A DNA stretch of 37,659 nt, taken from positions 1-37,659 of IMG/VR virus record IMGVR_UViG_3300037628_000290. One strand, written 5' to 3'. Every line of letters begins with the position of its first letter. Positions within the stretch are counted from its first letter, which is position 1. Under the pieces are notes generated by a model, which was not told where the DNA came from, made no database searches, and was given only the letters and a program-made list of their open reading frames with translations. Below are positions 6,340-36,052 of the stretch, in pieces. The position numbers and the translations under genes are program-made. This stretch comes from a virus.

Positions 6340-7701
6340 ATGACGCAGGTAATTCAATTACCAAAAGACATACAACTTCGAAGCTACCAGCAGGAAGCAT
6401 TCAAAGCTTATTTCATAGACGGCAAAAAACGTATTATACAAATCTTGCACCGCAGAGCCGGGAAAGATTATGGAATTCTTAATCTCTGTGCTTCGGCTGT
6501 GTTAAGAGAGCCAATGTATTGCCTGTATTTATTTCCAACACAGCGACACGCAAGACGTGTAATTTGGAATGGTATGGATAAGTCCGGGAGAAGATTTTTA
6601 GAGGCATTTCCAGCTGAGGCCATTGTTAAAAAGAATAACATCGAGATGATGTTAGAGTTCAGTAACGGAAGTATCTTCCAGCTTGGAGGGTCAAACGATT
6701 ACGACAGTCACCGGGGAGTTGGAGCTAAGCTTGTTGTCTTTTCAGAGTATGCAGATTCAAATCCAGCAGCATGGGAAGCAATCTTTCCGATGCTTGATGA
6801 GACCGGTGGTGCGGCAATATTTGTCTATACGGTCAAGGGTATGAACCACGGCTATACACTCTATAATACCAACAAAGACAATCCCAACTGGTATATTCAA
6901 AACCTTACAGTTGATGATACCAGGGATAATGAAGGTAACAGAATCATCACAGAGGAAATGATTGTGAACGCAAAGAATTCTGGCATACGTCAGGACGTTA
7001 TCGATAGAGAATACTATAACGACTTCTTCGCAGCCATACCCGGCAGTGTATATGGTGATCTTCTCGATCTGGCCAGAGAAGAAAGACGCATAACAAACAT
7101 TGCTATCGATCCATCTGTTGTTGTCTATACAGCATGGGACTTAGGATATCGGGATAGCACCGCCATATGGTTTGTTCAATCTGTTGGTAAAGAGATTAGG
7201 TTTGTCCATTATTATCAGAACAGGGGTCACGCTATGACGCACTACATGGACTACGTAAATGCATATGGATTCAAAAACAATATAAGATATGGAGGGCATT
7301 TTGCTCCTCACGATTCTAAAAAACACGAGCTCCAGCTTGGCAAGACGATGATTGAATTTGCTGCGGAGCAAGGATTTATGTTTAATCTGGGCTTCCCAAA
7401 CAATCGAATACCTGATGTCAGCATTGATAGCGGAATAAATGCTACAAGAGAATTTTTCAATCGCTTTTGGTTTGATGAAAACGAATGCGCAATGGGGCTA
7501 TCAGCCCTTAGAAGTTATCACAGAAAGTACGATGCCAAGCTTGATATATATTCAGAAAAGCCAGAACATGACTGGGCTTCAGATGGGGCAGATGCTCTCC
7601 GATACTTCTCGGTAGCTTGGCAGGATCGCTTTGGGACTCCTCGCAATGGTTTTCAGCGCGTTTCCAAGCCTATCAATCCTTACGCTTATACCTCAGGCTA
7701 G
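6340..7701 (+). CDS. terL: terminase large subunit
   Basis: 453 aa. The N-terminal ATPase has the terminase Walker A variant HRRAGKD (37-43), a FPTQ motif III-like segment (65-68) and Walker B region LVVFSEYAD (131-139). The C-terminal RNase H-like nuclease has TAWDLGYRDS (264-273, Asp267), APHDSKKHE (322-330) and HDWASDGADALRY (410-422), giving three acidic metal ligands. It packages DNA into the prohead through the portal and cuts concatemers. AAGGA precedes the ATG. It ends the rightward recombination operon, is oriented against the virion genes, and meets the lysis genes tail to tail with a 9-bp overlap. No small subunit is adjacent. Confidence 0.95.
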   Translation: MTQVIQLPKDIQLRSYQQEAFKAYFIDGKKRIIQILHRRAGKDYGILNLCASAVLREPMYCLYLFPTQRHARRVIWNGMDKSGRRFLEAFPAEAIVKKNNIEMMLEFSNGSIFQLGGSNDYDSHRGVGAKLVVFSEYADSNPAAWEAIFPMLDETGGAAIFVYTVKGMNHGYTLYNTNKDNPNWYIQNLTVDDTRDNEGNRIITEEMIVNAKNSGIRQDVIDREYYNDFFAAIPGSVYGDLLDLAREERRITNIAIDPSVVVYTAWDLGYRDSTAIWFVQSVGKEIRFVHYYQNRGHAMTHYMDYVNAYGFKNNIRYGGHFAPHDSKKHELQLGKTMIEFAAEQGFMFNLGFPNNRIPDVSIDSGINATREFFNRFWFDENECAMGLSALRSYHRKYDAKLDIYSEKPEHDWASDGADALRYFSVAWQDRFGTPRNGFQRVSKPINPYAYTSG

Positions 7702-16347: not shown

Positions 16348-18691
16348 TTTCTCCCTCTCTCTTTCTTGGTACAACCTCTCCAGTATCATCTATCCTAAAT
16401 CTAGATTCGCCTGTTAACTCTTTTTCTCCAAAGGCTTTAACTTCAGCTGTGGTAAATATCTTGGTGAAATAATTTCTTTGATATGGCGATCCCATCTTTA
16501 GCATGGTAGTTTCAGTCTTAGGTCTTGCAGGCATGCCCTTATTTAACTTGGATAATGGATTTGAAATATCTTCAAATGAAGCTGTGTACTTATCCAAATT
16601 AGGCCCTCGCACAGGGATGCCGCTACTATCGACAATTTCTATCCCTCTATTGTCTTTTGTCGTTCGCACATAACCAGAATTCATTACATCAATCTTATAT
16701 AAATCCTTTAGCCTATCTGCAGGTAAATCTCTATACTGAGCTTTGAAGCCCTCTGGGACTGTAACATCACTTATTAAGGCCTGAGCCATCATATAATTAC
16801 CAGTCTTTCTAGTATCATAATTGCTCACGCCTTTCGGCATTCTGTATGTGCGGCCATTCATAGTCCCATAATCATAGAAGTTGTTTACTGTTGCATCTGC
16901 TGCTTTCTTATATGCCTTCTTAGGATCCATGCCCTTTTGAATAAATTCCATTGCCAAGAGTTTTGCAGTGTCAGATGTGTCACTTATAGCACCAGTAATA
17001 TCACCGCTATGTGCTCCAAGCGAATCATTGTAGGGATGTAGATTTTTCCTTATTCCGTCATCAATATCAGATTCTTGAATTGCTCGTGTTGACGATCCAA
17101 ATACATCAGCCCAGATGCCAGTACTTTGTACCCCAACATCCTTAATTGAATCCATCATCTTTTGCTTGCCCTGCCTTTGTGCGGCAAACAGAGCTGGCAG
17201 ATATTGCTTGGACAATGGATTTGTCGACATAGCATAAGAACCATTTGTTGCGGACTCCAGGCCATATCTTTTTAAATCGGATAATACTATATTCTGGTGC
17301 TTGCCAGATGGATCGTATTCCTGCATGACAGCATTCATTGTAGCTAGCTGATCCGCTGGGTCTTGACCATGAGCCTGACCAACAAGAGCGCTTCCAACAG
17401 CTTGCGGAACCAAGGCCAAAGGAGCCTGACCCTTAATTGGATCGTCTGATGCTCCCATCTGCTTCTGCACTGATAGCTTGGCCGCTGCAGGATCACCCGA
17501 ACCATACATCTTAAAATTTCTATCAGCAGCAGCGACATTTTGATTTGCAGCAACATATCCAGCAGGGTCTTTAGCAAAGTCCTTTTGGTTTTGATCGATC
17601 ATCTTAAGAGCAGCTTCATAATATTTCGTTCGAAGGGCAAGGTCTGGTGATTTATCACTAGGGCCATATTGTGCAGCAAGCTTTGCAGAGTCAAGAGGAT
17701 TCATGTATTTACTTGCATCCGACACGCCGCCATAAACCTTGGCAACACCCAGTTCTTTTTCTATAGCTTCAGCATCATTAGGAAACCACTGCTGCGCTTT
17801 GGCAACAACTGCAGCATTACCAGAAGAATCACCATGCTGATTTCTGATAAGTTGATCTTGAAAGTCGGACTGAACGCCAGAAAGAGTTATGTGATTGGCT
17901 TGCTCATACTGGCTGCGCTGCTTTTCCAAATTAAGAGCGATTGTCGTACGCTGTGATGGCGACATATCTGCATGCTTAGCTTGATTGTACTTATCTATAT
18001 AGTCCTGCGGCTTGCCACTAACTAGAGCATCACGCATACCGCCCATATAAGTTTCACTCTGCAGTGTCTCACCAAAGTCTTTATCTTTTTGGGCTGCATA
18101 TTGACCGGTAATTATCCCGTGATTTAAAGCAGCTTGTGTTGCCGAATAAGCTCTTGCCTTAAACTTAGCTGCATTATCTCGTGCGATCTGACTGTCATCA
18201 TCATCATTCATTCCAGCCTTATATGCTGAATTAGCTCCATCAAGTGAAAAAGCATCCATTGACTGTTCATAATGAAATCTAAGTTTTTTCTCATCTAACT
18301 TTCTTACAGCAGATGCAACAGTAGTTCTTTGCTTGAATGCATAGTATTCAGCATTGTTTTTAACTTTTGCTCTGATTCTAGGATCAATGTTTTGAAGCGT
18401 TCCATTAATTACCGCTTCTGTACTTTTATCATACTGTTCAAGTGCTCCCGAACCAAAATTTTGTGGTTTTAAAACATGATCAGTCGCCGCATATATACCC
18501 TTGCGTACCTGCAAGATTTGATCCTCAGCATGAGCATTTAATCTCTGCTTCTCTGAATCCCGAAAGCCTTTTTCCACAGCAGAAGTAAACTCTTGCATTC
18601 CAGCTGCAGCTTTTTCATAACCGCTTTGAACGTCAGGTGCGCCAACCGGTGTAATGTTAATAGATGATTGGTACTTTAATCCTTCAGGCAT
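16340..18691 (-). CDS. large internal virion (ejection) protein, gp15-like position
   Basis: 783 aa, almost entirely helical, with Gln, Ala, Asp and Lys richness and no long hydrophobic segment, as in T7 gp15. AGGAGG lies 7 nt before the ATG, inside the 3' end of the HNH gene, with an 8-nt overlap. In T7-like phages the equivalent protein stacks in the core above the portal and is injected to form a periplasmic tunnel. The assignment rests on size, composition and order between tail tube B and tail fibre; sequence similarity is not obvious by eye. Confidence 0.72.
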   Translation of the reverse strand: MPEGLKYQSSINITPVGAPDVQSGYEKAAAGMQEFTSAVEKGFRDSEKQRLNAHAEDQILQVRKGIYAATDHVLKPQNFGSGALEQYDKSTEAVINGTLQNIDPRIRAKVKNNAEYYAFKQRTTVASAVRKLDEKKLRFHYEQSMDAFSLDGANSAYKAGMNDDDDSQIARDNAAKFKARAYSATQAALNHGIITGQYAAQKDKDFGETLQSETYMGGMRDALVSGKPQDYIDKYNQAKHADMSPSQRTTIALNLEKQRSQYEQANHITLSGVQSDFQDQLIRNQHGDSSGNAAVVAKAQQWFPNDAEAIEKELGVAKVYGGVSDASKYMNPLDSAKLAAQYGPSDKSPDLALRTKYYEAALKMIDQNQKDFAKDPAGYVAANQNVAAADRNFKMYGSGDPAAAKLSVQKQMGASDDPIKGQAPLALVPQAVGSALVGQAHGQDPADQLATMNAVMQEYDPSGKHQNIVLSDLKRYGLESATNGSYAMSTNPLSKQYLPALFAAQRQGKQKMMDSIKDVGVQSTGIWADVFGSSTRAIQESDIDDGIRKNLHPYNDSLGAHSGDITGAISDTSDTAKLLAMEFIQKGMDPKKAYKKAADATVNNFYDYGTMNGRTYRMPKGVSNYDTRKTGNYMMAQALISDVTVPEGFKAQYRDLPADRLKDLYKIDVMNSGYVRTTKDNRGIEIVDSSGIPVRGPNLDKYTASFEDISNPLSKLNKGMPARPKTETTMLKMGSPYQRNYFTKIFTTAEVKAFGEKELTGESRFRIDDTGEVVPRKREGESG

Positions 18692-19163
18692 CAGAAACCT
18701 CCTTTAGGTGTCCCCACGATTTCCCTCTCTTAATGTCACTAATGGTTTGATGCCTTACGCCATATCGCTCAGCAACTATTCTATGAAGCTCATCTGATGC
18801 CAATATCTCCAGCACTTGCTCTTCTGTTAGCTTGGCTCCCGGGCCTTTTTCGCCTCTTTGATCTTGGCAGCGTCCTGCTTCTACCATTTCTCTGCTGTTA
18901 TCAGCGTTTGTTCCCAGATGTAAATGCAGCGGGTTTACACATAGTCTGTTGTGACACTCATGGAGCACAAGCAGACCCTCGGGAATTTTTCCAACGAAAG
19001 CCTGATACGACATTCTGTGAACTAAATTCTGTTTGTTATTCCACCAGATTTGTCCGTAGCCACCGCCATCAAGACCATTTTGCCAATTCCAGCACTTAGT
19101 AACTTCATTGATCTCGGCGTTATCTATGATTTTTCTTTGTAGTTTAGTTTTGTTCATGGCCAT
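18684..19163 (-). CDS. HNH endonuclease with C-terminal HTH (free-standing homing type)
   Basis: 159 aa. A W-rich N-terminal strand (CWNWQNG...GYGQIWW) is followed by the HNH/zinc segment HRMSYQAFVGKIPEGLLVLHECHNRLCVNPLHLHLGTNADN (about 49-89), with His50-region and LHEC/CVNP ligands. A C-terminal helix-turn-helix (KLTEEQVLEILAS...RYGVRHQTISDIKRGK, about 110-148) probably reads the target. It is clearly paralogous to the HNH gene at 28985. It sits between two ejection-protein genes, without its own promoter, and its last codons contain the ribosome site of the next gene. Typical selfish nuclease inserted into a late operon. Confidence 0.9.
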   Translation of the reverse strand: MAMNKTKLQRKIIDNAEINEVTKCWNWQNGLDGGGYGQIWWNNKQNLVHRMSYQAFVGKIPEGLLVLHECHNRLCVNPLHLHLGTNADNSREMVEAGRCQDQRGEKGPGAKLTEEQVLEILASDELHRIVAERYGVRHQTISDIKRGKSWGHLKEVSDA

Positions 19164-22653: not shown

Positions 22654-23943
22654 CTAAGTTGTTGCTCTAACTATCTGATAGGTAAAGATCGTATCATTCT
22701 GTGGATCAGCAGAGAATATTACGGTCAAAGTATCAGTTGTTGTAGCGACAGATAATATCGAAACATTACCAGTTCCATCATCAACCAACGTTACAAAGGC
22801 AAGATCAGTAGCTAAAACTCCGCTAATAGTAAATGCCTCAGTAGCTGAACTACCTGCAGTAGTTTGCTCAGCAGCATATACAATCATGTGCGATGGACGC
22901 ACAGTTGCAGCTAGCATTGACTTTTCAACTGCACTAGCTTGAATAGTCACTGCGCCAGCATTGTCCATAGCAACATCATTGCTCATAGCAACTGATGTGA
23001 TAGTAGTTCCGTTACCAACCATAATCTGGGTAGTAGTTGAAGCATCTAGTAATACGCCAACATTAGAACCATTACCAACTAAGACATTACCTTCGGTAAT
23101 AGCTGCCATCGCAGGTTCAACGGCGCCGCCAGCAATAGTCACTGCCCCAGCGTTATCCATTGTCACATCGTTAGACATAGCTACGGAAGTAATAGTAGTT
23201 CCATTACCAACCATGATTTTAGTATCGTCAGAGGCGTCGAGTACAACAGCAGTTGTATCATTACCAACAAGCACATTACCGCCAGCAGATAGATCAACTA
23301 AAGCCGCAGTTGTAGCATTACCCACTAAGAGGCTACCGCCAGCAGATAGGTCAAGAGCAGCAGCAGTTGTGCCATCTCCAACCATGATGTTACCAGCACC
23401 GGACATATCAAGAACAACGGCAGTTGTGTCGTTACCAATAACAATGTTTCCACCAGCACTTAAATCTAATGCAGCAGCAGTTGTACCGTCACCGACCATA
23501 ATATTACCGGCTCCGCTCATGTCGAGCGCAACAGCAGTAGTATCATTACCGATAGCAATGTTTCCACCAGCACTTAAATCTAATGCACTACCAAACCCGG
23601 AAGCATTTCCGATCATTATGCTACCTTCTGCTAAGGCAATTTTTGCAGCAGTTAATTGACCGTCAGAGATAGAAGAACTATCAATGAAGTCAGCAACTGT
23701 AACATTTGTAGTTATAGCAGTTACCATGACAATAGACTGATCGTCAGATGCCTTTATGAAGATAATGTCCCCTATTGAAAGAGTTCCAACGCCATTAGTT
23801 AAATCTAATATGTGATCATTAAAATAACCACTAGCTAAAACTGTTGCTATTGCATCATCGTCATCTTTATACGTGAATATCCTGTGCGAAAGGTTATTTC
23901 GCCCAGCAGATACTAGGTTCCATCCGTCTGAGTTATAAGACAT
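22654..23943 (-). CDS. repeat-rich head fibre or decoration protein
   Basis: 429 aa. A unique N-terminal domain (about 1-105) is followed by seven tandem units of about 19 residues, typified by GNIMVGDGTTAAALDLSAG (about 107-240). Then comes a longer duplicated block, IMVGNGTTITSVAMSNDV (about 243-270 and 307-334), and a beta-rich C-terminal domain (about 350-429). This is the design of trimeric fibres with a capsid-bound head, repetitive shaft and tip. It lies directly downstream of the capsid gene, where phages keep head fibres or decoration proteins. No sequence family is certain. Confidence 0.72.
   Translation of the reverse strand: MSYNSDGWNLVSAGRNNLSHRIFTYKDDDDAIATVLASGYFNDHILDLTNGVGTLSIGDIIFIKASDDQSIVMVTAITTNVTVADFIDSSSISDGQLTAAKIALAEGSIMIGNASGFGSALDLSAGGNIAIGNDTTAVALDMSGAGNIMVGDGTTAAALDLSAGGNIVIGNDTTAVVLDMSGAGNIMVGDGTTAAALDLSAGGSLLVGNATTAALVDLSAGGNVLVGNDTTAVVLDASDDTKIMVGNGTTITSVAMSNDVTMDNAGAVTIAGGAVEPAMAAITEGNVLVGNGSNVGVLLDASTTTQIMVGNGTTITSVAMSNDVAMDNAGAVTIQASAVEKSMLAATVRPSHMIVYAAEQTTAGSSATEAFTISGVLATDLAFVTLVDDGTGNVSILSVATTTDTLTVIFSADPQNDTIFTYQIVRATT
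23224..23625 (-). repeat. tandem 57-bp coding repeats in head fibre gene
   Basis: Encodes the seven 19-residue shaft units. Two successive 38-residue pairs (residues about 127-164 and 165-202) differ at only two positions, so the DNA repeats are recent and could expand or contract by recombination. Confidence 0.75.
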
Positions 23944-23957
23944 AATTTATCTCCTTA

Positions 23958-24779
23958 TTATGTATAGCTAACTTCAACGATACCGGTGTTGTCGATAGCG
24001 ACAGCAGTACCCTTGAACATTGTGTTTACGAACCAGGAAGCATAATCAGCTAGATATTGCATATCAGCCCTGATATCCATTCCAACCGCAAAGCCCATGG
24101 CGTTTTTAGCCCATGCATATGCTTTACCAGCTGTTAGGCCGCCCTCAGCATTGGATGGGATAACTATCCAGTTATAGCCCATGACCTTTCTTCCATCTAA
24201 ACGACCGTCACCCAACAACATATTGTTCGTGTATCGTGAGTTGATGAATTTGTCATCATTTAAGATATCCTCTTCACCCTCGGCAGTTAAGATTACAAAT
24301 CTGTCTTCCGCTCTTGTTACACCAAGGTCAGAGAAGATTTTGTTCATAGATAAGAATTTGGCATAGTCAAAACCAGTACCACCGGCTGCAACAATATTAC
24401 CAGTACCAGAAGCTGCAACCGCATCAATTATGATCTGATCACATCTACGTCCGATAGCCATTGCGCCCATTTTTGCTAACTGTTGACGTTCCTCAAAGTT
24501 AACTTCCCTTTGCTTAAAGATGTCAGACATATCAGCAGCATCCCAGTCCTGCATAGTTGCAGTAACGGGAGTGTAGTCGATGTCCATCAATGGGATTTTA
24601 TTCTGTGGAACATGAAGGCTAGCCATGCCTTTGCTCACTTTCTGAAATCTAACCTGTGATCCAACGACGTTGGATTTTGTATAACAAGTGTTTCTGAGAA
24701 GGAAGCCTTCTGACTGATAAACAGCCTTAACCATTGCGTCAAATTCAATTACCGCAAGGTTTGGAAGATTAATTGACAT
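23958..24779 (-). CDS. major capsid protein
   Basis: 273 aa. It is short for an HK97-fold capsid protein but has that pattern: an N-arm, VVGSQVRFQKVSKGMASLHVPQNKIPLMDIDYTPVTATMQDWDAADMSDIF (E-loop and spine region), a central helix (LAKMGAMAIGRRCDQIIIDAVAAS), and a C-terminal A-domain with FVILTAEGEEDILNDDKF and VMGYNWIVIPSNAEG. It lies one small gene after the scaffold and before the head fibre. AAAGGAG precedes the ATG. It has its own promoter and a structured leader of about 190 nt, fitting the need for many copies. Capsid call from pattern and order. Confidence 0.88.
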   Translation of the reverse strand: MSINLPNLAVIEFDAMVKAVYQSEGFLLRNTCYTKSNVVGSQVRFQKVSKGMASLHVPQNKIPLMDIDYTPVTATMQDWDAADMSDIFKQREVNFEERQQLAKMGAMAIGRRCDQIIIDAVAASGTGNIVAAGGTGFDYAKFLSMNKIFSDLGVTRAEDRFVILTAEGEEDILNDDKFINSRYTNNMLLGDGRLDGRKVMGYNWIVIPSNAEGGLTAGKAYAWAKNAMGFAVGMDIRADMQYLADYASWFVNTMFKGTAVAIDNTGIVEVSYT

Positions 24780-25188: not shown

Positions 25189-26037
25189 CTATCCCCTCTC
25201 TACTGCTGCCTGTGCTTGTCCAAGTCTCTCAAAGAGGGCTTTTCTATAACCGACATCATTAGTATATTTTTCATAGTTATCGACAATTTCTTGTTGGAGT
25301 CGCTGGACTGTATCAACAGCACTTCTAACTGGCTGCATACTGTGTTCCGCAGGTCCTTCTACTGGCTCAGAAGCTTGTCTAAATGCCTCAAACATCATGA
25401 CAACTCTTTTATCTACAAGTTTGTCATCCACTATGCTTTTGATTATTTCAGCGTTTGTCTCATCCATGTGCATGTTTGCAAAGTTCTTAATGTTTTCAAC
25501 CATCTTAGTTCCAGCTTCACCCATAGCCTTGAATGCTTTTGATCCGGGAGCTATACGATCAATTTCTGAATCTCTATAAAAACTGAGGAGTTCATCAAAG
25601 GTTTTTTGCGGCATATTTTTTGCTTTGGCAATTTCTTTAAACTTAACCATTCTTGGGTCATCATCAATAAAATGAAGGCTGGCACCTTCAACATTTACAC
25701 CTTCCAAGTTGTAAGATTCCGGAGCACCAGAAAATGAACCAGCCATTTTTTGAAGACTGATATAACCATTTTCGAGGTCTTCAACAGATGCATATTTACC
25801 AGCGTACATTTTCTCTACTTCAGCAGCAGCGGTACCCTCTGGAGTTGCAGCTGCAGCTGCTCGATCTTTTTCGACCATAGCTAAAGAAAGTTCTGTCGGA
25901 TGAGCCAAGTCTATGGCGGCTATAGGCCCGCTATCCTCAGGCATGCCTGGAATAGATTGAGTTTCTGGGCTGGATGTTTCACGTGAAACATTGTTATCTG
26001 CTCCAGCTTCTACGGGGCTTCCTGCATCTTCGAGCAT
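25189..26037 (-). CDS. scaffolding protein
   Basis: 282 aa. It has the low-complexity acidic/Ala N-terminus, helical middle and no Cys typical of podovirus scaffolds (T7 gp9-like). The central part (EKMYAGKYASVEDLENGYISLQKM) is the conserved 'AGKY-s-VEdLE-kGY-elQK' motif of this group. The C-terminus (RLQQEIVDNYEKYTNDVGYRKALFERLGQAQAAVERG) is the likely coat-binding helix. It directs prohead assembly and then leaves. The DNA for residues about 16-21 (VSRET region) is an exact parS palindrome. Confidence 0.88.
   Translation of the reverse strand: MLEDAGSPVEAGADNNVSRETSSPETQSIPGMPEDSGPIAAIDLAHPTELSLAMVEKDRAAAAATPEGTAAAEVEKMYAGKYASVEDLENGYISLQKMAGSFSGAPESYNLEGVNVEGASLHFIDDDPRMVKFKEIAKAKNMPQKTFDELLSFYRDSEIDRIAPGSKAFKAMGEAGTKMVENIKNFANMHMDETNAEIIKSIVDDKLVDKRVVMMFEAFRQASEPVEGPAEHSMQPVRSAVDTVQRLQQEIVDNYEKYTNDVGYRKALFERLGQAQAAVERG
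25975..25990. promoter_or_regulatory. exact consensus parS site (ParB-binding palindrome)
   Basis: TGTTTCACGTGAAACA is a perfect 16-bp palindrome identical to the chromosomal parS consensus shared by most bacteria with ParABS. It lies within the scaffold coding region and encodes the disordered N-terminal VSRET text. No parA or parB gene is visible in the window, so the reader would be the host ParB. Confidence 0.8.
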
Positions 26038-27130: not shown

Positions 27131-28735
27131 TTACTGCTGCTGTTGCTGCTGCTGTTGCTGCTGTTCGCCAGGGAGCGGAACGCCAGATATACCAGGAGCT
27201 TGCTGAGCTTGTAGAGCACCTTGTGCCGCCTCTGCTGCCTTCTGATGATCTGCTTGAACTTCGGCATCTGTTTTTACGATGCTAAGAGGAGTTCCGGTCT
27301 TTTCAGCAATCCATGATGGTAATTTATCAATGTGAATACTGTTCTGCGTGAACTCTGGACCGCCAGTACCATTCATCAACTCAAGGAATTGTTGGTAGCT
27401 TTCGAGTTCTGTATTGCTTTGAGCCTGAGAGAGAGGAGAAGTATATTGTAAGTCCACAATTTTCCCATCGATTGCAAAATTTTTGGGAAGTAAACGGCCG
27501 AACAATCCCTGCTTTTGTAAGACATAAACTATTCTCCTTGAAAGTCTTGGTAGGAATTCAACTTGAAGACGGCCAATAGCAGGCCCTATTTGCTCAAGTA
27601 ATACTTGTTTTTTATATATAGTTTCAGTTGCAGTCTGCGGAGGAGCATCAACAGGACGCAATATATCGGCGTACATTATCTTTAATACTTGTTCTCTTAA
27701 ATCACTCAGCACAAGCTGTGTAAATTGAGCATCTGATGCTGTTGGTAATTGCTGAAGCGGGGGCGCACCTCCGGGCAGGCCACCAACTTCTATAACCTTT
27801 CCAGGCTCAGGGTCGAACTTATTTGCATTAAAGACGTTATCACTGAACGCAAGCCACATAGGTCCAGCTTTAAATGCAGCCGATCGTAATTCATCTGCAG
27901 CCATAGCATTAATCGTCTTGAGTGTGGCTCGTGCAAATATTGCAGGACCCACTCCAAGCGTCTGACCAGGACGTTTCATCCATCTAAATGCTATCCACGG
28001 ACTAGATGGCGACCAGCTATCAAGAACTACATGCTTAGTAGCTTCTTCGATGACGATATATCTGTACTTATTTACTTTTTCTTTTGGATAAAATATTGAA
28101 GCCTCAAGCAGATTTGCCTTAACATTGGGATCGTTTCCATAAGAACGCTTTAGCTCGCCGCTCATCTTACCCGTAGGCCACAAAACTTCTATGTCTCGTA
28201 CTGGTATTTGCTCATAGTCATGAAAGACAGTACTAAGTATTCCATAGCTATCCTCTTCAAAGTACATCTTCGATATGGGATACGATCGGAATATTAAAGG
28301 ATGATCATCATCATATGTAACATATAAAGCAGCAGTCCCTACAGCTAAATCAAAATAAGCCTCACCACTAGCCGATGCAAAGTTTGATCCGTTTAAGTAC
28401 TTAAAGAATATCTCTGTAATTTCTTCGAGTTCTTCGTTTATACCGTCACGCTCTTCTTCGGGAACAAGCATACCAGCAGTAAGTTTTTGCCAGTTTTGAT
28501 ATGAAGGAGTTAATGACGATTGAAGTTTTGCAGTAAATGCAACAGTTGCAGATACTCCAACAGAATCAAAGATATCCTCACCCCTAACATTTCCTTCCCA
28601 GTCACGTCTGTAACTAGAGCGCTCTGGTTGGGTCACATTGTAAGCATCTTCGTATAAAGACCACCACGAAAGGGCGCGATCCCTAGCTTGATCTCTGCGC
28701 TTAATTACGCACTCAACTGATTTTGACTCAGGCAT
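27131..28735 (-). CDS. head-to-tail connector (portal) protein
   Basis: 534 aa, matching the podovirus head-tail connector family: the N-terminal RDQARDRALSWWSLYEDAYNVTQPER, DIFDSVGVSATVAFTAKLQSSLTP, the FDLAVGTAALYV segment, KRPGQTLGVGPAIFARATLKTINAMAADELRSAA and ETIYKKQVLLEQIGPAIGRLQVEFLPRLSRRI. It forms the dodecameric portal through which terminase packages DNA and to which tubular A binds. It ends in ten consecutive Gln, a DNA triplet repeat. The start follows a small gene by 2 bp. Confidence 0.95.
   Translation of the reverse strand: MPESKSVECVIKRRDQARDRALSWWSLYEDAYNVTQPERSSYRRDWEGNVRGEDIFDSVGVSATVAFTAKLQSSLTPSYQNWQKLTAGMLVPEEERDGINEELEEITEIFFKYLNGSNFASASGEAYFDLAVGTAALYVTYDDDHPLIFRSYPISKMYFEEDSYGILSTVFHDYEQIPVRDIEVLWPTGKMSGELKRSYGNDPNVKANLLEASIFYPKEKVNKYRYIVIEEATKHVVLDSWSPSSPWIAFRWMKRPGQTLGVGPAIFARATLKTINAMAADELRSAAFKAGPMWLAFSDNVFNANKFDPEPGKVIEVGGLPGGAPPLQQLPTASDAQFTQLVLSDLREQVLKIMYADILRPVDAPPQTATETIYKKQVLLEQIGPAIGRLQVEFLPRLSRRIVYVLQKQGLFGRLLPKNFAIDGKIVDLQYTSPLSQAQSNTELESYQQFLELMNGTGGPEFTQNSIHIDKLPSWIAEKTGTPLSIVKTDAEVQADHQKAAEAAQGALQAQQAPGISGVPLPGEQQQQQQQQQQ
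27134..27163 (-). repeat. CAG/CAA triplet repeat (polyGln at portal C-terminus)
   Basis: Ten Gln codons immediately before the portal stop: eight CAG with two CAA. Such runs slip easily, so the tail length may vary among phage isolates. Confidence 0.85.
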
Positions 28736-28984: not shown

Positions 28985-29449
28985 ATGTCTAATGATGCGC
29001 TGAAAAGCAAAATACTATTAAATGTGGAAAAAGATCCTGATCCAGACGGGTGTTGGCTGTGGCAGGGGTATTGCAATAAGAATGGCTATGGTCAGATTTG
29101 GTGGGAAGGTAAACAGCATTTAACTCACCGCATGTCGTATCAAGCCTTTATTGGTGATATTCCTGAGAGTATCTTCGTGCTTCATTGGTGCGATGTACGT
29201 AAGTGCTGCAACCCCAAACATCTATTTCTTGGGACACAGACTGACAATATAAGAGATAGGGTCAACAAAGGGCGCTGCAAAGGGGGAGAAAATAAAGGTG
29301 AAAAACATGGGCGCGCTAAGCTAACCAAAGAACAAGTACTTAAGATACTAGCATCCAATGAAAAGCAAAAAACACTTGCTGAACGATATTGCGTAGACCC
29401 ATCCACTATTAGTATGATTAAAACAGGGAAAAATTGGAAACATTTATGA
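28985..29449 (+). CDS. HNH endonuclease with C-terminal HTH
   Basis: 154 aa, paralogue of the HNH protein at 18684. The same order applies: W-rich strand (CWLWQGYCNKNGYGQIWW, 23-40), HRMSYQAFIGDIPE, LHWCDVRKCCNPKHLFLGTQTDN (66-88, Cys/His metal ligands) and helix-turn-helix KLTKEQVLKILAS...RYCVDPSTISMIKTGK (112-149). It lies on the plus strand between two leftward gene blocks, with its own promoter. The stop overlaps the next micro-ORF by ATGA. Probably a mobile nuclease; it may also mark the island for spread. Confidence 0.9.
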   Translation: MSNDALKSKILLNVEKDPDPDGCWLWQGYCNKNGYGQIWWEGKQHLTHRMSYQAFIGDIPESIFVLHWCDVRKCCNPKHLFLGTQTDNIRDRVNKGRCKGGENKGEKHGRAKLTKEQVLKILASNEKQKTLAERYCVDPSTISMIKTGKNWKHL

Positions 29450-35803: not shown

Positions 35804-36052
35804 ATGTCAAGAAAGCCAATCAATTTCAATGGGATTAAATATTACTATATGAAACCTTATTACCGTAGCCAGTGGCGGTCAGGGATTAAGTCAACATCGC
35901 TACACCGAGCTATATGGGTTCATCACCACGGAGAGATACCAAATGGTATGCTTATCCATCACATAGATCATGACAGGGTAAACAACGACATCTCAAACTT
36001 ACAGATGATGACCCCAAGAGAACACACCATACATCATAAGGGTAATCCTTGA
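35804..36052 (+). CDS. small HNH endonuclease (HNH_3 type)
   Basis: 82 aa. The HNH_3 core is LHRAIWVHHHGEIPNGMLIHHIDHDRVNNDISNLQMMTPREH (about 33-74), with HHIDHD as first motif, N-N-DISNL in the middle and REH at the end. No separate DNA-binding domain is present. CGGAG lies 7 nt before the ATG. It has its own extended -10 promoter and lies on the plus strand against the leftward block. Unlike the other two HNH proteins it belongs to the small intron/free-standing type. Confidence 0.9.
   Translation: MSRKPINFNGIKYYYMKPYYRSQWRSGIKSTSLHRAIWVHHHGEIPNGMLIHHIDHDRVNNDISNLQMMTPREHTIHHKGNP

Follow-up and report, generated by a model that had tools for sequence, protein, structure and literature searches.

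A chromosomal-type parS site in the capsid scaffold gene of a T7-like podovirus: a candidate loading site for host ParB

The locus and its phage context

The window, i.e., the whole 37,659-nt stretch of DNA analysed here, is an IMG/VR virus contig with the head and tail module of a T7-like podovirus. Its main features are:

6340..7701, + strand: terminase large subunit (phrog_2, E 3.3e-23)
23958..24779, - strand: major capsid protein gene (phrog_3437, E 7.6e-45), used as a query for finding relatives
25189..26037, - strand: capsid scaffold (assembly) protein gene (tblastn to the CKB-S2 scaffolding protein; alignment with relatives' scaffolds)
25975..25990, no strand: parS site TGTTTCACGTGAAACA, a perfect 16-bp palindrome of the canonical chromosomal form
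27131..28735, - strand: portal / head-tail connector gene (phrog_332, E 4.1e-75)

The scaffold ORF is flanked by the portal gene and the major capsid gene. By tblastn it is similar to the Vibrio phage CKB-S2 scaffolding protein, and it aligns to the scaffolds of capsid relatives around a PEWLPEKF...EDL..SY..L motif, so the site does lie inside a scaffold gene, as the first-pass annotation had it. Other genes in the window encode ERF, SSB, a Gp157-like protein, a Toprim protein and a lysozyme. HNH_3 gave three matches among the 50 window ORFs (the likely carriers by sequence are 18684-19163, 28985-29449 and 35804-36052), and these may be homing endonucleases. Adjoining the major capsid gene, 22654-23943 (- strand) encodes a protein with many near-identical GNxxxGNDTTAVxLDxSxGG repeats. 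A helicase-like ORF (2-316) is truncated by the left end of the record, which is thus slightly short of complete.

Searches of the window, whose record lacks its left end, found neither ParB_N (PF02195) nor HTH_ParB (PF17762), and none of the 50 ORFs belonged to a Par family. This agrees with the earlier observation that no phage parA or parB is visible, and a phage-encoded ParABS partition system, with neither gene found, was rejected for the window. The window also has no integrase (PF00589).

Cultured relatives are distant: the window portal is 25-29% identical to those of Methylophilales phage MEP301 and of Vibrio and Pelagibacter phages, with at least 80% of it covered by 124 of 146 matching INPHARED records. 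Relatives do not identify a host: portal and terminase have only weak matches, to Vibrio, Pelagibacter, Methylophilales and Stenotrophomonas phages, and genome-bin matches disagree, so this route was rejected.

The parS site and its coding context

Positions 25975-25990 are an exact, single copy of TGTTTCACGTGAAACA, and no further site with three or fewer mismatches occurs anywhere in the window. The site agrees with the parS consensus TGTTNCACGTGAAACA (PMC7022226) and, compared with TGTTNCACGTGNAACA, the 16-bp inverted repeat of canonical chromosomal-type parS, it matches TGTTTCACGTGAAACA at 16/16 positions. By base composition, 1.3e-5 copies would be expected in the window, and by a first-order Markov model 7e-6, i.e., approximately 1e-5 per window. 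Two claims made from the letters, that the site equals the ParB-binding consensus and that a chance 16-bp match in 38 kb is very unlikely, are thereby confirmed. The origin-proximal clustering of chromosomal parS sites is not seen in the window, where phage structural genes lie on all sides.

Within the scaffold protein, parS is translated as VSRET (residues 17-21, in the context ...GADNN-VSRET-SSPE...). AlphaFold2 gives residues 1-46, which include VSRET, a pLDDT of 33-37 and no secondary structure, in a model that is poor overall (mean 51), so this region is predicted to be disordered. With codons drawn according to the phage's own usage, the peptide NVSRET would have exactly the parS codon set with probability 0.0027. 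Where VSRET occurs in unselected phage DNA (838 kb), it is spelled as parS with the exception of one other spelling, and VSRET as a peptide motif was rejected for this reason. The suggestion that the protein does not require these codons is supported.

Relatives of the window

Relatives were sought in IMG/VR with capsid, scaffold and terminase queries, and the capsid query was also run against genome contigs. Those found by these queries are approximately 33-41% identical (capsid 35-41%, best approximately 41%), and the window's own relatives as a whole span approximately 20-40%. Neither the scaffold genes of these capsid-based relatives nor those of the cultured relatives MEP301, CKB-S2, ZCVPP1 and 1.138.O contain parS. 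Because its relatives, at no more than approximately 41% capsid identity, are without the site, conservation is not demonstrable in the window's lineage, and their lack of it speaks neither for nor against function there.

A second scaffold lineage (43-79% identity) carries parS in the same N-terminal stretch. Five IMG/VR loci resemble the window in having an in-frame VSRET, in its N-terminal position and in encoding a homologous scaffold protein, but their scaffolds are only approximately 20% identical to that of the window. The site is exact in four (L112, L143, L054 and L175) and has one mismatch in the fifth (L144); L112 and L054 came from the parS scan and L143, L175 and L144 from protein similarity. 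In this lineage, parS is retained at the DNA level: its bases are kept while the flanks have diverged, with indels. When the four exact carriers are compared, all four columns for V, S, R and T show one codon throughout (4/4), vs 6/32 other invariant fourfold/sixfold columns (hypergeometric p of approximately 0.004, hand-calculated), a value which is descriptive because the carriers were selected for possessing the site. The first-pass annotation had proposed aligning relatives' scaffold genes to see whether the 16 bp stay identical while their surroundings vary; this pattern is missing from the window's own relatives and present in the distant lineage.

Among 79 retrieved scaffolds, parS at two or fewer mismatches occurs in only four (L112's own contig, L143, L144 and L175), and 200 permuted palindromes gave a mean of 0.01 exact matches in the same set. 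On an 83-sequence scaffold tree, parS presence requires four changes at best, at least three of them via well-supported branches; the window's own position on this tree is unsure because of long branches. In the sister pair L054/L191 there is a short indel at the site, and L191 lacks parS. Retention of the site between diverged flanks, the indel and the spelling of VSRET together point to a small DNA element that is gained and lost, not to a peptide.

parS across phage collections

At least 120 stretches in IMG/VR contain TGTTTCACGTGAAACA, vs four (on three contigs) for a same-composition palindrome made by one symmetric swap and 11 for a permuted palindrome. Chance is therefore expected to account for at most approximately 3-9% of the parS matches, and since the parS count is a lower bound, the true share is below this. 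One control palindrome, TGTTACACGTGTAACA, is repeated on IMGVR_UViG_3300037423_000235 (23,269 bp; stretches L136 and L139, one with five sites and the other with three), resembling an array of binding sites for some other regulator.

In INPHARED, a 30-base query (7 N + 16-mer + 7 N) found TGTTTCACGTGAAACA in 286 of the 50,697 records (824 matches counted over both strands, or approximately 412 sites), whereas the swapped palindrome, the sole control run there, was found in none; the records are not independent events because they include near-duplicates and RefSeq copies. The TGTTTCACGTGGAACA form occurs in 147 INPHARED records, phi29 among them, the commonest names being Pseudomonas, Arthrobacter and Bacillus. 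The TGTTCCACGTGGAACA form, which is the P. aeruginosa consensus parS (PMC7022226), occurs in 58, with Pseudomonas the commonest name (17). Named carriers include Listeria phages P100 and A511, B103, phi29, Lactobacillus phage Bacchae, Ruegeria phage DSS3P8, Gordonia phage Woes and Vibrio phage phi 3, as well as microviruses and an inovirus. The occurrence of parS is thus non-random, and phages show a general enrichment for it.

Enterobacterales phages are absent from the ten commonest names and from the perfect-palindrome matches listed for INPHARED, although ten Klebsiella records, mostly jumbo phages, have the TGTTCCACGTGGAACA form. Enterobacteriaceae chromosomes are without par genes (PMC7022226); as a negative control, the missing Enterobacterales phages are suggestive only.

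Most carriers have no ParB of their own. ParB_N was not matched in 46 of 50 parS-bearing viral contigs (12-201 kb) or in 12 of the 13 records examined from cultured or complete parS phages, HTH_ParB exceeded the cut-off in 0/50 of the contigs, and control genomes behaved as expected in these searches. Integrases are also uncommon (PF00589 in 9/51 parS records), so most parS phages are without one.

Of the 146 sites in the 120 IMG/VR stretches listed, 57 fall partly or wholly outside called genes. Among the matches listed, in-gene sites give VSRET in one frame and MFHVKH-type peptides in another, and the third has a stop. Only approximately 4/89 in-gene sites among these matches fall in scaffold-like genes, which is not clearly above the scaffold gene's share of a phage genome, so we do not claim enrichment in scaffolds. 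Two homologous terminase large subunit genes (L044 8761-10575 and L075 166-1878, both - strand) have parS near their starts in different frames (MFHVKH and VSRET).

Some carriers have many sites or sites at genome ends. A 116,662-bp contig (IMGVR_UViG_3300037518_000322, G045, locus L087) has 24 parS-like sites at one or fewer mismatches across approximately 91.7-108.3 kb; those listed are mostly TGTTTCACGTGGAACA, the array looks like an actinobacterial-type one, and the contig has no ParB_N match and no HTH_ParB over the cut-off. The 5.9-kb genome of the filamentous phage bajarodino virus 6 (Inoviridae, PQ006149.1, L229) has six exact parS sites, mostly intergenic, at 635, 662, 1414, 2857, 4096 and 5628. 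In phiPsa374 (L248), parS lies at 389-404, within the direct terminal repeat (DTR) near the genome end. The T5-like Vibrio phage phi 3 (L228) has parS at 821 and 2934 within direct terminal repeats, the left repeat carrying a site, and one of its sites sits between the A1 and A2 genes.

Interpretation

A perfect parS, the lack of partition genes and the many other phages with parS together argue that the host's segregation protein is probably borrowed. Our preferred reading, to which we give a probability of roughly 0.6, is that this is a working site at which host ParB loads, acquired by the phage as a means of using the host's segregation machinery. The interpretation in the first-pass annotation is thus partly supported. 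In the known mechanism, ParB dimers that have loaded at parS with CTP become sliding clamps and engage ParA (PMC12704722), and a single parS is enough for positioning, plasmid stabilisation and host Par function (PMC7022226). The 16 bp would have entered the scaffold gene as a short cassette, in a stretch that is disordered and tolerates change. Host ParB, as a CTP-dependent clamp, would then load there and slide over adjoining phage DNA, and host ParA and/or SMC would handle the phage genome as they do an origin region. The most likely benefit would be that an injected or replicating genome is positioned and inherited when infection does not proceed straight to lysis. Binding of host ParB at the window site, and a gain in segregation or positioning, are suggested by analogy with phi29 and Spo0J.

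Two observations count against loading of host ParB: the window's relatives, the nearest at 35-41% capsid identity, are without the site, and the window's site is single and within a late gene, whereas 57/146 sites among the matches listed are not fully intragenic. A parB might also lie in the part of the record that is missing at the left end.

The late-gene position could instead mean a local effect, in which ParB spreading and SMC loading compact the phage genome or silence late (structural) genes, delaying lysis. The window's parS sits in a late operon, two of the four phi29 sites are in late genes, and phi29 couples capture by Spo0J to a delayed lytic cycle (PMC9437464). However, a late-gene position is not general, because the sites in phiPsa374 (DTR) and Vibrio phage phi 3 (left repeat) are in terminal repeats, and we consider a local effect unlikely.

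Replicating genomes with high-affinity parS might alternatively act as decoys, titrating host ParB (and SMC) off the chromosome, which would favour the phage by upsetting segregation or division of the host cell. The scarcity of integrases among parS phages, the window included, and the multi-site elements (24 sites on G045, six in the inovirus) would fit this, but most records have one to three sites, few for titration, and ParB loss is just mildly harmful in several hosts (PMC7022226), which makes a decoy rather unlikely.

A random 16-mer match, i.e., a neutral relic in a fast-evolving, unconstrained N-terminus, would account for the site's absence from the window's relatives, and control palindromes do occur in IMG/VR at a low rate. 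Against this are the expectation of approximately 1e-5 per window, the small chance share among the viral-contig matches (at most approximately 3-9% of at least 120) and the 286 INPHARED records vs 0 for the control, so chance is quite improbable. That VSRET is conserved as a peptide with the palindrome as a by-product is scarcely credible: several unrelated scaffolds do read it in frame, but the same DNA gives MFHVKH in other genes or falls outside genes, VSRET is nearly missing in other spellings and the region is predicted to be disordered.

Returning to the loading of host ParB, we see an even chance that takeover via chromosomal-type parS is a widespread, repeatedly evolved phage strategy, of which the window's site would be one recent gain. 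Such a strategy would be shared by lytic dsDNA phages, microviruses and inoviruses that infect many ParABS hosts, and it would allow their genomes to persist or to be partitioned although the phages have no par genes. Very different phages would then share a segregation or positioning route that depends on one motif. parS would also be a simple sequence marker for phages that possibly persist in a non-lytic carrier state and, on an uncultured phage, a hint of a ParABS host. Likewise, the narrowing of the window's host to ParABS bacteria in the first-pass annotation is an inference.

Comparison with known systems

The window's site has the same 16-bp sequence as the chromosomal parS of bacterial ParABS systems, but it is on a phage, away from a chromosomal origin and without linked par genes. 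P1, N15 and actinophages with parABS encode their own ParA and ParB, which act with their own, dissimilar sites. The window phage is like them in having a centromere-like site on phage DNA and unlike them in that no phage ParA or ParB was found.

The closest precedent is phi29: host Spo0J/ParB is reported to entrap its genome in spores while Spo0A suspends lysis (Meijer et al. 2005, cited in PMC9437464). phi29 has four exact TGTTTCACGTGGAACA sites (10445, 15903, 17243 and 18760), two of them within late genes 10 and 15, and B103 has two TGTTTCACGTGGAACA sites. Like the window phage, phi29 is tailed, is without ParB and has host-type parS, with some of its sites in structural or late genes. Two features of phi29-type recruitment, a host-type parS on the phage genome and the absence of phage ParA/ParB, are both found in the window, whose left end is cut. 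The phages differ in that phi29 has four sites of the TGTTTCACGTGGAACA form, a spore-forming host and an experimentally tested effect, whereas the window phage has one perfect-palindrome site and a T7-like podovirus gene set and is known from sequence alone.

The open literature that we searched contained no description of host-ParB recruitment through a phage parS outside phi29. parS in phages is of a kind already known from phi29 but sparsely described, to which the window adds one member; of greater interest is how widely parS occurs among phages that have no ParB.
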